From Candidatus Omnitrophota bacterium (lineage in GTDB: Bacteria; Hinthialibacterota; Hinthialibacteria; Hinthialibacterales; JAKPRU01): a stretch of DNA of 30,403 nt. A program made the translations under genes and the position numbers. Below, one piece after another: positions 1-11,508 of this stretch. The stretch lies in contig JAKQSI010000127.1 of assembly GCA_029570205.1 (NCBI GenBank), positions 1-30,403 of the forward strand, given 5' to 3'. The notes under the pieces were generated by a model that saw only the letters and a program-made list of their open reading frames with translations, had not been told where the DNA came from and searched no databases. Within the stretch, counting starts at the first letter, position 1. Each line of letters starts with the position of its first letter.

Positions 1-1
1 C

Positions 2-109
2 AAGCAGGTAGAGGAAGCGCAGCAGAAAATTGTCGCGATTATCCGCCGCCTGGAAGATGCCGGAGAAATCATTATTTCCCGCGGCGGCGAAGAGGACATG
101 ATGGTGTAA
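2..109 (+). CDS. fliG: Flagellar motor switch protein FliG, C-terminal end (partial)
   Basis: Only the last 35 residues are in the window. The reading frame that opens at base 2 gives KQVEEAQQKIVAIIRRLEDA, then GEIIISRGGEEDMMV, then TAA. This is the classic FliG tail: the EEAQQKIV helix followed by the GEI.I.RGGEE(D/E) ending. FliG sits in the rotor's C-ring on the cytoplasmic face, contacts the stator and generates torque. The identification rests on this tail and on fliH-fliI-fliJ following downstream in the usual order. The start and most of the gene lie to the left of the window. Confidence 0.9.
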   Translation, partial: KQVEEAQQKIVAIIRRLEDAGEIIISRGGEEDMMV

Positions 110-140
110 CAATGGGGGATTGCGGATTATGAATTATGAA

Positions 141-706
141 CAGTAGGACAGGCCTCCGTGCCTGTCAAAAAAAGATAAACAGTAGGACAGGCCTCCGTGC
201 CTGTCAGATTGAGGAACAGTAGGACAGGCCTCCGTGCCTGTCAGATTGAGGAACAGTAGGACAGGCCTCCGTGCCTGTCGAAAGAAGATGAACGGCAGGA
301 CAGGCCTCCGTGCCTGTCGAAGGAAGATAAACAGTAGGACAGGCCTCCGTGCCTGTCGAAGGAAGATAAACAGTAGGACAGGCCTCCGTGCCTGTCGAAA
401 GAAGATAAACGGTAGGACAGGCCTCCGTGCCTGTCGAAGGAAGATAAACAGTAGGACAGGCCTCCGTGCCTGTCGAAGGGAAATAAACGGTAGGACAGGC
501 CTCCGTGCCTGTCGAAAGAAGATAAACAGTAGGACAGGCCTCCGTGCCTGTCGAAGGAAGATAAACAGTAGGACAGGCCTCCGTGCCTGTCGAAGGAAGA
601 TAAACGGCAGGACAGGCCCCCGTGCCTGTCGAAAGAAGATGAACAGTAGGACAGGCCTCCGTGCCTGTCAGATTGAGGAACGGTAGGACAGGCCTCCGTG
701 CCTGTC
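141..706. repeat. 15-copy tandem array of 37/39-bp hairpin repeats
   Basis: Fifteen copies of a 20-nt core, GACAGGCCTCCGTGCCTGTC, lie head to tail. The cores start at 147, 186, 223, 260, 299, 338, 377, 416, 455, 494, 533, 572, 611, 650 and 687. Each core folds as a 7-bp stem (GACAGGC/GCCTGTC) with a 6-nt loop. The period is 39 bp in eleven steps and 37 bp in three (copies 2-3, 3-4 and 14-15). Linkers come in two types: 19 nt, like gaaggaagataaacagtag, and 17 nt, like agattgaggaacagtag. One core (611) carries a C in the loop. The array fills the space between fliG and the next gene. The 39-bp period (13 codons) keeps long frames open on both strands, but the 37-bp steps break those frames, so I treat it as non-coding. 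It is not CRISPR, because the linkers are near-identical. Confidence 0.95.
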
Positions 707-740
707 AGGTTCTCCGAGAATTGAACGAAAGGTACATCGC

Positions 741-1217
741 ATGAAGATATTTCTGGCATCGCCTTTGGGATTTATGGAGAGTTCCAGGCCGTTTATCTCA
801 AGACTTGTGAACGTATTGGAAGAAGGGGGGCATACCGTTCTGGACCCATGGGATCTGGCGGAGCCGTTTAGCGAGAAACAGGAGAGCGCCAACCACATTT
901 CGGATGAAAAAACCCGCCGAGAGCAGCTTCATCGAATCAGCATGGCCATCGCCGGGCAGAATCATCAACTCCTGAAGGAGGCGGACGGCATCCTGGCGAT
1001 CCTGGATGGTTCCGATGTCGATTCCGGGACGGCAAGTGAAATCGGTTGCGCGTTCGGAATCGGTGGTAAAATAATCAACGGGTATCGGAATGATTTCCGT
1101 CGCGCCGGGGAGAACGATGGATGCCTTGTCAACTTGCAGATCCAGTACTGGATCGAGCAGTCCGGCGGACAGATTTATACGAGTCTGGAGGCCCTTCGGG
1201 ATTGTCGATGGGCGTAG
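741..1217 (+). CDS. Nucleoside 2-deoxyribosyltransferase-like protein
   Basis: A 158-residue protein with the hallmarks of the nucleoside 2-deoxyribosyltransferase family (Pfam PF05014). The N-terminus KIFLASPLGF matches the family's first strand and loop. DSGTASEIG at residues 94-102 contains the expected catalytic glutamate, E100, within the D.GT..E.G motif. GGKIINGYRNDFR follows, as in the family's third core strand. Family members cleave or exchange the N-glycosidic bond of (deoxy)nucleosides, or act on related nucleotides such as dNMPs; the substrate here cannot be read. The start is supported by AAAGG at 728-732, 8 nt before the ATG. It lies between the repeat array and fliH in the same direction, 30 nt before fliH, so it is probably co-transcribed with flagellar genes. 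That is an unusual place for a nucleotide-metabolism enzyme. Confidence 0.8.
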   Translation: MKIFLASPLGFMESSRPFISRLVNVLEEGGHTVLDPWDLAEPFSEKQESANHISDEKTRREQLHRISMAIAGQNHQLLKEADGILAILDGSDVDSGTASEIGCAFGIGGKIINGYRNDFRRAGENDGCLVNLQIQYWIEQSGGQIYTSLEALRDCRWA

Positions 1218-1247
1218 TTCGATCAGGCAGAATGGAAGATACGCGAG

Positions 1248-2027
1248 ATGTCGAGAGTCATTAAAGCGCCGAATGTACGCGAAGCGCGCCCGATGAGCAT
1301 CGTCAACCGGGAGATGGTACTTCGGTACGTAGAGGATGAAGCACAGCAGATCCGTGAACAGGCGGTGGTGGAGGCCCAGGACATGATCTCCGCCGCGCAG
1401 GTCCAGGTCGATGAGATCCTTGCCGAGGCCCGGGCGCAGGCGGAAGGAATCCTTGCCGAGGCGCAGGCGCAAGCGCAGGGAATCCGTGAATCGGCTCGCG
1501 AAGAGGGAATGCAGAAGGGCGACGCGGCCGGCCGCAAGCAGGTTCGAACCGAAGTTGCCGGTCTCATGGCGGACTTGGCGAACATGCTCAAAGAGGGCCG
1601 GCAGACCCTGGAGGACATGATCGTCCGACAAGAAAGAGAAATCCGCCGTCTCGTCGCCCAGATCGCCTCCAAAGTCGTGCAACAGATCATCGATGAGGAC
1701 CATGAAACTGTGGCGCGAATCGCGCGGGAATGTATCCGACTGGCCGGCGATCGGCAGACCCTCACGATTCTGATTCACCCGGAGGATCACGAGATTATCG
1801 AGCAGTATTGCCCGGAATATCGAGTCGCATTCGACAATCTGGAGAAAATCGAAATTCGCGACGATCTCCGTGTCCCCCGTGGCGGAGTAATCATTGAAAC
1901 CGGCAGCGGCGGAGTCGATGGGAGGATTCACCGGCAGCTCGGGTATATCCGGGAAACACTGGTACCGGAGGAACCCGGGGAAATAGAAGAGCAGACGTTA
2001 GAAGATATCCCGGAGCCGGAGGAATAA
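1248..2027 (+). CDS. fliH: Flagellar export assembly protein FliH
   Basis: A 259-residue FliH/HrpE-type protein. It opens MSRVIKAPNV, the common SRVIK start of FliH. A long coiled coil follows (about residues 30-115), rich in A, E and Q with EILAEARAQAEG-type heptads. The conserved C-terminal domain contains LTILIHPEDHEII and the IRDDLRVPRGGVIIETGSGGVDGRI segment. FliH forms the peripheral stalk that holds the FliI ATPase to the export gate and restrains its activity. Its stop codon shares one base with the fliI start, which indicates translational coupling. The acidic tail (EEPGEIEEQTLEDIPEPEE) adds little to the call. Confidence 0.92.
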   Translation: MSRVIKAPNVREARPMSIVNREMVLRYVEDEAQQIREQAVVEAQDMISAAQVQVDEILAEARAQAEGILAEAQAQAQGIRESAREEGMQKGDAAGRKQVRTEVAGLMADLANMLKEGRQTLEDMIVRQEREIRRLVAQIASKVVQQIIDEDHETVARIARECIRLAGDRQTLTILIHPEDHEIIEQYCPEYRVAFDNLEKIEIRDDLRVPRGGVIIETGSGGVDGRIHRQLGYIRETLVPEEPGEIEEQTLEDIPEPEE

Positions 2028-3367
2028 TGTTCGAGGCACATCCGGTAGCATGGCAGAACCTTGAGAGCAGTGTGGCCGATCTGCATACAATCCGGCTTCG
2101 CGGCCGAATTGAGGAAGTGGTCGGCCTGTTGACGCTTTCGAGAGGGCCGGGTGGCTCCATCGGGGATCTGGTTTTCATCTATCCGGGCGGGGACCATGCG
2201 CCCATTCCTGCGGAGATTGTCGGATTTCGATCCGGGCGTGTCATTCTGATGCCCCTGGGACCCGCGCTTGGTGTATATCCCGGCGCGGAGGTGATCTCGA
2301 CCGGCGCGCCGATCCGGATCCGCTGCGGGTCGGAAATGCTGGGGCGTGTGATCGACGGAATGGGGCATCCCATCGACGGGAAAGGAACGATGCTCACGGA
2401 TGAATGGCGGTCCATCATCGCCCGACCACCCAGCGCCATCGCACGAAAACGAATCACAACGCCGCTGGCGACCGGGATCAAAGCGCTCGATGGATTTCTC
2501 ACATGGGGGCGCGGTCAGAGAATCGGTGTGTTCTCCGGCAGCGGTGTCGGCAAAAGCACACTGATGGGCATGATCGCCCGAAACACCGAGGCCGAAGTGA
2601 ATGTGATCGGCCTGATCGGCGAACGCGGCCGTGAGGTGCGCGAATTCCTGGAAAAGGACCTCGGCGAAGACGGATTAAAGCGCAGTGTCGTTATTGTGGT
2701 CACTTCGGATAATCCGGCGTTGCTTCGGGTAAAGGGAGCTTTCGCGGCTATCACGGTCGCCGAGTATTTCCGCGACCAGGGCAAGGATGTCATGTTCATG
2801 ATGGATTCAGTAACGCGCCTGGCAATGGCTCAACGTGAGGTGGGCCTTGCCGCAGGCGAACCGCCGACAACACGTGGCTATACACCCTCGGTATTCGCAA
2901 TGCTTCCGGGTTTCCTGGAACGCGCGGGAACGAGTATCGGCGAGGGGTCTATTACGGGTCTGTTTACCGTGCTGGTCGAAGGCGATGATATGAACGAGCC
3001 GGTGGCGGACGCCGTACGCGGTATTCTGGACGGTCATGTCGTCCTGACTCGAAAGCTGGCAACACGCAGCCATTATCCGGCCATCGACGTGCAACAAAGC
3101 ATCAGCCGTCTCATGGTCGATATTGTCCCCGATGACCATAACATGGCTGCCCGTCGACTCGTTCACGTTCTTTCCGTCTATCGCGACTCGGAAGATCTCA
3201 TCAACATCGGCGCGTACCAGAAAGGTTCCAGTCCGGAGATCGACCTGTCCATCCAAATGATCGGGCCGATTGAGGAATTCCTGCGCCAGGGTATTCGGGA
3301 GCAAGTCTCTTATCCGGAAGTGGTGCAGCAGGTCAAGCTCCTGGCCGCGAAGGCCGGGTTAAAATGA
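2027..3367 (+). CDS. fliI: Flagellum-specific ATPase FliI
   Basis: A 446-residue ATPase of the F1-beta/type III secretion family, full length for FliI. Residues 1-100 form the beta-barrel N-domain. Walker A is GSGVGKST at 171-178. GERGREV follows at 199-205, and Walker B is VMFMMDS at about 255-261. The family signature GEPPTTRGYTPSVFAMLP comes shortly after. FliI forms the cytoplasmic hexamer that helps unfold and deliver rod, hook and filament subunits to the flagellar export gate, together with FliH and FliJ. The ATG overlaps the fliH stop by one base, and the stop overlaps a possible upstream start of the next gene by four bases. Confidence 0.96.
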   Translation: MFEAHPVAWQNLESSVADLHTIRLRGRIEEVVGLLTLSRGPGGSIGDLVFIYPGGDHAPIPAEIVGFRSGRVILMPLGPALGVYPGAEVISTGAPIRIRCGSEMLGRVIDGMGHPIDGKGTMLTDEWRSIIARPPSAIARKRITTPLATGIKALDGFLTWGRGQRIGVFSGSGVGKSTLMGMIARNTEAEVNVIGLIGERGREVREFLEKDLGEDGLKRSVVIVVTSDNPALLRVKGAFAAITVAEYFRDQGKDVMFMMDSVTRLAMAQREVGLAAGEPPTTRGYTPSVFAMLPGFLERAGTSIGEGSITGLFTVLVEGDDMNEPVADAVRGILDGHVVLTRKLATRSHYPAIDVQQSISRLMVDIVPDDHNMAARRLVHVLSVYRDSEDLINIGAYQKGSSPEIDLSIQMIGPIEEFLRQGIREQVSYPEVVQQVKLLAAKAGLK

Positions 3368-3390
3368 CCCCGAAGCGGGAAGGACAAATC

Positions 3391-4605
3391 ATGCGCGCAT
3401 TCCGGTATCGTCTGGCCTCTTACCAGCGCATCAAGCGCCACAAGATCGAGGAGACGGAACAGGAAATCGCACGACTTGAAGGCGAGGTTCAAAAACGCTT
3501 TCGTCAGATCGAGGAAGGCCGGAGAAGGCTCGCGGAATATCAGCGCTTTTTTATGGAGGAAGTTCCGGAAATCCATTCCCCGGAAATTGAGGCAACCGAG
3601 GCCGCATTTCGAGGATATACATTCCTTGAGGAGGCACGCCGGTTTCGAGAAATTGAGGACCTGCGCCGAAAACAGGAAAAAAAACGAAAAGAGCTGGTGA
3701 CGCTATATCAGGAGGAAAAAATGCTGGAACGCCTGAAAGATCGTCAGTATGAAGCCTGGCAGAAAGAGGAGCAGCGACAGGATATCTACCTGCTCGATGA
3801 GATGGGGGGGCAAGCGCATTTGCGGAAACAAAAACCCTCCGGTGGAGCCATGCTGGTCATCCTCGGCCTCGTGGCCCTGATCGGGGCCGCAGGCGGGATC
3901 CTGATAGCGTTGGGGAAACATCATACAATTCTCCAGCGGTTCGGACTGGAAAAACCGGTTACGGTCGCCTCGGCAACCGCTGAAATCGCCGTAGCGCCCT
4001 CCGTTCCCGGTCAATATGACATTAAAGACCTCTACGGGGACTTAGACCGTCCCGCAAACGAAGTACTGAACCAGATGATGGAAATGAGCCAGACGCTCCG
4101 ACAGCGTCGGCAGGAGGCCCGCGAGGAACAGGCACGGCTCGAAGCTGAGCGGAAAGCGCTGGAAGAAAGCGAAAAACAACTGGCGGACCGTCTCGGCGCT
4201 CTGGAATCGAAAATTAACCAACTCAAACGGTTACAGGAAGAGGAACAGGAACGACTGGCCGGTATGCACATGCAGCGCGTGACCGAGATTTCCGGGGCGC
4301 TTCAGCGCATGAAACCCAAAGGCGCGGCGGATCTGCTGACCGAAATGTGGAAAATCGATCCGGCGGAGGACCCCGACGCCAGAGACATTGTCCTGGATGT
4401 CTTTCGCAGCATCCCCTCCGCAAAACGAAACAAGATACTCGACGCTCTGGTAAAAAGCAGCAAAACCGAAGCGGCAGATATGGTACTGAAATTCGTCCAA
4501 ATCGAACCGGTTGCAACTCCGGCTTCTGTCGCTTCTACCACATCGACCGTATCCACGGCGGCCGCGCCGGTTCCAACATCCGCCACCGCCCCGGCGACAC
4601 AGTAG
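3391..4605 (+). CDS. FliJ-MotE fusion: export chaperone coiled coil joined to a periplasmic motor protein domain
   Basis: A 404-residue protein. Residues 1-150 look like FliJ: MRAFRYRLASYQRIKRHKIEE, then a long charged antiparallel coiled coil. FliJ is normally a soluble protein of about 150 residues that works with FliI. A hydrophobic helix follows at about 152-175 (GAMLVILGLVALIGAAGG). The rest resembles MotE/YlxF: a coiled coil at about 225-290, then an MgtE-N-like domain at about 292-372 with GALQRMKPKGAADLLTEM, and an A/T/P-rich tail. Many flagellar operons carry fliJ followed by ylxF/motE; here both lie in one frame with no internal stop. I chose ATG 3391 because GGAAGGA at 3378-3384 sits 6 nt upstream; an ATG at 3364 overlapping the fliI stop is the alternative and adds nine residues. 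The topology, with FliJ inside and MotE outside, is consistent. Confidence 0.8.
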   Translation: MRAFRYRLASYQRIKRHKIEETEQEIARLEGEVQKRFRQIEEGRRRLAEYQRFFMEEVPEIHSPEIEATEAAFRGYTFLEEARRFREIEDLRRKQEKKRKELVTLYQEEKMLERLKDRQYEAWQKEEQRQDIYLLDEMGGQAHLRKQKPSGGAMLVILGLVALIGAAGGILIALGKHHTILQRFGLEKPVTVASATAEIAVAPSVPGQYDIKDLYGDLDRPANEVLNQMMEMSQTLRQRRQEAREEQARLEAERKALEESEKQLADRLGALESKINQLKRLQEEEQERLAGMHMQRVTEISGALQRMKPKGAADLLTEMWKIDPAEDPDARDIVLDVFRSIPSAKRNKILDALVKSSKTEAADMVLKFVQIEPVATPASVASTTSTVSTAAAPVPTSATAPATQ

Positions 4606-11463: not shown

Positions 11464-11508
11464 GAGATACCGTAGGGGCGACGCATGCGTCGCCCCTGCG
11501 TATCTCTA
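11464..11508. repeat. 45-nt near-perfect palindrome
   Basis: The centre, 11474-11497, is a perfect 24-nt palindrome: AGGGGCGACGCA followed by its exact reverse complement. The outer arms AGAGATAC and GTATCTCT extend pairing to 11464-11508 with one bulge or mismatch zone. It ends six bases before the anti-sigma gene's 3' end. It could serve as a terminator or processing hairpin between anti-sigma and alpha-2-macroglobulin, or be a mobile palindromic unit. No T-run follows on either strand. Confidence 0.85.

Follow-up and report, generated by a model that had tools for sequence, protein, structure and literature searches.

What is the array of fifteen hairpins that separates the end of fliG from the next gene in a flagellar gene cluster of a Candidatus Omnitrophota bacterium, and does it serve flagellar gene expression? 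The window analysed here is the whole of contig JAKQSI010000127.1 (30,403 nucleotides; assembly GCA_029570205.1), and it opens inside fliG because the contig starts there. In the array an element of known kind, the GTAG-tagged repetitive extragenic palindrome (REP), a short mobile repeat, has expanded within this lineage; it is not a new flagellar control device. With a probability of roughly 0.87, it consists of REPs that a REP-associated tyrosine transposase (RAYT) dispersed and that slippage or unequal recombination then multiplied locally. On the simplest reading the array has no dedicated flagellar function.

Structure of the array

Direct parsing of the window yields fifteen direct tagged palindromes between 143 and 706, all in a single orientation and each composed of G(T/C)AG followed by GACAGGC-CTCCGT-GCCTGTC. 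The copies start at 143, 182, 219, 256, 295, 334, 373, 412, 451, 490, 529, 568, 607, 646 and 683, and Tandem Repeats Finder calls the same region as 139–706 (period 39, 14.7 copies). The tag is GTAG before 13 of the 15 cores and GCAG before the other two, and each unit has a 7-bp perfect stem (GACAGGC/GCCTGTC) and a 6-nt loop, with a folding energy of about -12.5 kcal/mol. Two types of linker separate the units: linker A (11 of 14; 15 nt, mostly gaaRgaagatRaacR) and linker B (3 of 14; 13 nt, agattgaggaacR). An initial sequence-only reading had placed an array at 141–706 in the transcribed direction, with almost perfectly conserved cores, a 39-bp period and linkers in the order A-B-B-A...A-B. 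Its coordinates lie within 2 bases of those parsed here, the 20-base core is indeed identical in 14 of 15 copies (the copy at 611–630 has one loop change), and the linkers run A-B-B-A(x10)-B; the period of 39 bp holds for eleven of the spacings but not for the remaining three, which are 37 bp.

Individual units carry private substitutions. The longest exact repeat within the array measures 77 bp and recurs at a distance of 195 bp, consistent with duplication of blocks of several units. Covariance models of Rfam gave no match to window positions 1–1300 at E values up to 1. There is next to no probability that the repeat encodes a repeated peptide, as a 39-bp period that keeps a frame open for 150 aa might suggest. 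Open reading frames (ORFs) do span 234–686(+) and 241–759(-), but the frame is broken by the 37-bp units, relatives have one copy only, and dispersed copies of the repeat elsewhere have non-triplet periods; a conserved peptide, which the sequence-only reading had named as its own counter-case, was not found.

Dispersal of the palindrome and its linked transposase

The strict palindrome is present in 129 copies in the genome as against 0 for the same motif read backwards, a control that excludes chance, so that the search for the core elsewhere proposed from the sequence-only reading is positive. A GTRG-tagged, relaxed-loop form numbers about 170 in this genome and 39 and 14 in two congeners, with 0 copies in the 76 other genomes (79 searched in all). 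Most genome copies of the palindrome carry a GTAG or GTGG tag. A specific tie to flagellar genes is not borne out, with the REP located at dozens of unrelated loci. The genome was read as stretches around matches, and among 35 REP loci 14 are spanned by a long ORF compared with 81% of random positions (p about 1.6e-7); the comparison used ORFs only, without a gene caller, such that the absolute fraction is uncertain. The family is mainly extragenic.

Many of the genome copies are solitary, while others form head-to-tail arrays with locus-specific linkers (Table 1). Linker A is also found in arrays on contigs C37 and C14 and linker B on C93, which indicates that loci have swapped units or that units have moved from one locus to another. 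Inverted partners belonging to another REP class are present at some loci (C37, and in the related genome JPNA) and at none of the units of the fliG array. Further along the window, a lone GTAG-tagged palindrome of a different type, GTAGGGGCGACGCATGCGTCGCCC, is located at 11472–11495.

On contig C89, a RAYT gene (L007:2015-2527(-), 170 aa) has 12 copies of the GTAG REP on one side and 8 on the other, all in one orientation. Its product passes the NCBIfam model NF047646 REP_Tyr_transpos with 86.6 bits (cut-off 80) and matches Pfam PF01797 (Y1_Tnp); its sole match among solved structures is the E. coli TnpAREP (4er8), and this is weak (E 0.033). In that weak alignment HVH (81–83) stands opposite E. 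coli HMH and Y141 opposite Y115, Y115F being a catalytic mutant of E. coli TnpAREP (PMC8266576), and the protein is therefore predicted to carry an HUH motif and a catalytic tyrosine. An orthologue in one congener (L036) is 90% identical and adjoins the same REP together with a sister palindrome, GTAGGCCAGGC...GCCTGGC. Homologues with 37–43% identity in two more distant genomes, order or class relatives (L037, L038), each adjoin GTGG-tagged palindromes of their own (GTGGGACCGGCG...CGCCGGTC; GTGGCACAGGCGG...CCGCCTGTG), which suggests that within the class the RAYTs and their REPs diverge in step. The sequence-only reading recognised no named family for the array; its unit is a GTAG-tagged REP with its own RAYT, combining a palindrome in the 20–40 bp range, a tag at the 5' foot, a high dispersed copy number and a RAYT flanked by the same REP.

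A second RAYT in the same genome (96.4 bits; L005:1330-1932(-)) lies next to an array in which an unrelated palindrome, GGCGGGAGC-TGAC-GCTCCCGCC, is repeated in tandem. This array (L005:1940-2255) contains about seven tandem copies of GGCGGGAGCTGACGCTCCCGCC and is without a GTAG tag. Contig C51 carries a third Y1 transposase, of the ordinary IS200 type, and no GTRG-tagged palindrome was found near it. Tandem repeats are located directly upstream of an IS200-type transposase gene at L003:1004-1424. In JPNA (G002 C302; L061, L080), the RAYT of that genome is situated ~3 kb from a short FliG_C-domain gene with a 187-aa open frame.

Growth of the array at the fliG end

The same junction of fliG and a deoxyribosyltransferase gene is present in two relatives. 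In JPNA (L033; FliH 98% identical) it contains a single REP with the sequence of the array units and, after it, a REP of a different class in inverted orientation; in USCA (L034; FliH 90% identical) there is one REP with a variant loop. Linker A and the 15 bases before the single JPNA REP are alike at 12 positions (shuffle p 0.0076), as expected if the duplicated unit is flank plus REP.

A twin of the window locus is found on contig C116 of the same genome, which starts with the identical 141 bases (the fliG tail), followed by 7 REP copies and a convergent 724-aa ORF. Two USCA contigs (C688 and C689 of G001; L065, L034) likewise both start with the same fliG tail, one REP each and ~70 more similar bases, and then fork, one into the C116-type gene and the other into the deoxyribosyltransferase–fliH genes. 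The forked tails are identical within a genome and different between species. With the same fork in USCA, these genomes probably each carry the fliG end and its REP in duplicate, with gene conversion keeping the two alike; the fork could also stem from mixed strains or from an inversion. The body of the window fliG was not found in the bins, which contain only other FliG_C-bearing genes and tails, as would be expected for a collapsed repeat contig. Starting from 1, the copy number at the fliG end has risen to 7 and to 15, in keeping with the growth from a shorter array proposed in the sequence-only reading, and the pair of loci (15 and 7 copies in one genome, 1 and 1 in a congener) documents on a small scale how a REP array grows in nature.

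It is very improbable that the array is an artefact of assembly, the true genome having one or a few copies or the order of the fifteen being an assembler mosaic. The sequence is a metagenome assembly in which two contigs share their identical first 141 bases and diverge at the array, contig names of the relatives carry k141, and the longest exact match between the 15- and 7-copy arrays is 101 bp. However, with this match, the internal maximum of 77 bp and no 99-mer repeated within the array, k=141 could order it, and the private substitutions distinguish its units. The forked fliG end of the congener has single-copy REPs, so the array is not the cause of the fork; for the same reason C116 as a chimera joined through array k-mers was dropped as the principal explanation. 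Such arrays and the duplicated fliG end break metagenome contigs, of which this locus is a warning.

The proposed history begins with a seed REP, a non-autonomous element that would have spread as single-stranded DNA after single-strand cleavage by the genome's own RAYT, a Y1/HUH transposase. Before the congeneric species separated, one REP would have inserted 3' of fliG, and the fliG end with its REP was then probably duplicated. Replication slippage or unequal recombination may later have amplified the unit (the 24-nt REP with ~15 nt of the DNA 5' to it) on site in this lineage, producing the 15 copies of the window locus and the 7 of the twin, and arrays may have exchanged some of their units. 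Several points weigh against this history. No transposition has been observed, the exact copy numbers are provisional in a metagenome assembly, and in a test of local duplication the similarity of adjacent units is suggestive, marginally above that of shuffled order (p 0.085). Nearly every multi-copy locus in this genome is also head-to-tail. A reading in which the RAYT/REP system of this genus works head-to-tail, multiplying units of a REP and a fixed linker locally and passing them between arrays (e.g. through replication or template switching that begins at nicks made by the RAYT), while changes in array length at the twin fliG loci tune flagellar gene expression, is quite unlikely.

Some REP elements and bacterial interspersed mosaic elements (BIMEs) of enterobacteria are reported to protect mRNA or to lower downstream expression. 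Co-option of the fliG array as a regulator of the fliG–fliH operon, with RNA hairpins that shield the upstream message from 3' exonucleases or reduce downstream expression, would accord with its position between co-directional genes, the stable folding of each unit and retention of a REP at the junction in three congeneric genomes. It is unlikely, though, as the same repeat and its arrays are found at many loci without flagellar genes and the copy number at the junction spans 1 to 15 among close relatives, a spread that speaks against a tuned function. Attenuation, raised by the sequence-only reading, is unlikely to proceed by intrinsic termination, since a sense-strand U-tract follows none of the copies and a scan of the array for intrinsic terminators gave matches on the minus strand only, with weak tails. 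The array is best explained as locally amplified REPs, and its position among the neighbouring genes is given in Table 1.

Table 1. Features of the window (coordinates) and REP arrays on other contigs of the same genome (contig names).
Feature	Location	Strand	Basis or remark
fliG 3' end, last 35 codons and stop (107–109)	2..109	+	FliG_C match at 2–76 of window contig (C69)
Array of 15 head-to-tail REP copies, GTAG/GCAG tag, period 39 (11x) or 37 bp (3x)	143..706	+	Sequence parsing, Tandem Repeats Finder
First REP unit, GTAGGACAGGCCTCCGTGCCTGTC	143..166	+	Direct parsing
Two type-B linkers (agattgaggaaca) around third REP; linker also fills C93 array	206..255	+	Direct parsing
Ten type-A linkers with REPs; linker resembles 5' flank of JPNA single REP (12/15 bases)	280..645	+	Direct parsing
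Last type-B linker and last REP copy	670..706	+	Direct parsing
Nucleoside 2-deoxyribosyltransferase-like gene; position conserved in two relatives	741..1217	+	PF05014, 68.1 bits
fliH	1248..2027	+	PF02108
fliI	2027..3367	+	PF00006, PF18269
fliJ-like gene	3364..4605	+	PF02050, under curated cut-off
REP array, 18 copies, 33 bp spacing	C38		Highest copy number among fetched regions
REP array, at least 10 copies, mostly 35 bp	C113		Among fetched regions
REP array, 11 copies, 36–37 bp	C93		Among fetched regions
REP array, 15 copies, 38–56 bp	C117		Among fetched regions
REP arrays, 12 and 8 copies, mostly 38 bp	C89		Among fetched regions

Comparison with known repeat systems

The array shares with clustered regularly interspaced short palindromic repeats (CRISPR) its short palindromic direct repeats and regular spacing, but its linkers are near-identical and 13–15 nt long rather than unique spacers, which rules out a CRISPR.

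Members of the GTAG REP superfamily are short palindromes with a GTAG or GTRG tag at the 5' foot, present in high copy number with several families per genome; they adjoin RAYT genes, and their clusters are units with flanking DNA reiterated in tandem (PMC3733652). The tagged palindrome described here agrees in its tag, its copy number, its coexistence with other palindrome families in one genome, its adjacency to a RAYT and its tandem units that include flanking DNA. It differs in that, across the 79 genomes searched, its combination of stem, loop and tag is confined to this genus, and in that head-to-tail arrays predominate whereas head-tail pairs are absent or rare in most published genomes (PMC3733652).

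In Pseudomonas fluorescens SBW25, which contains REP doublets forming hairpins (REPINs) and tandem REP arrays (PMC3116915), REP clusters similarly adjoin a RAYT and the ordered tandem arrays include the flanks. A REPIN is an inverted pair of REPs, whereas the unit here is a single REP, with 15 of 15 array copies in the same orientation.

The REPtron, composed of TnpAREP and its REPs in E. coli, Stenotrophomonas maltophilia and Marinomonas (PMC8266576), likewise pairs a Y1/HUH transposase gene with GTAG-tagged hairpins of its own on either side. The RAYT described here has only weak similarity to its E. coli counterpart. The size of its REP is akin to that of the S. maltophilia REPs (23 nt, with an 8-bp perfect stem and a 3-nt loop; PMC8266576). 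The present genome extends these systems by a REP/RAYT pair whose head-to-tail arrays are unusually long, in a lineage that has been little studied and whose relatives are deposited as Candidatus Omnitrophota.
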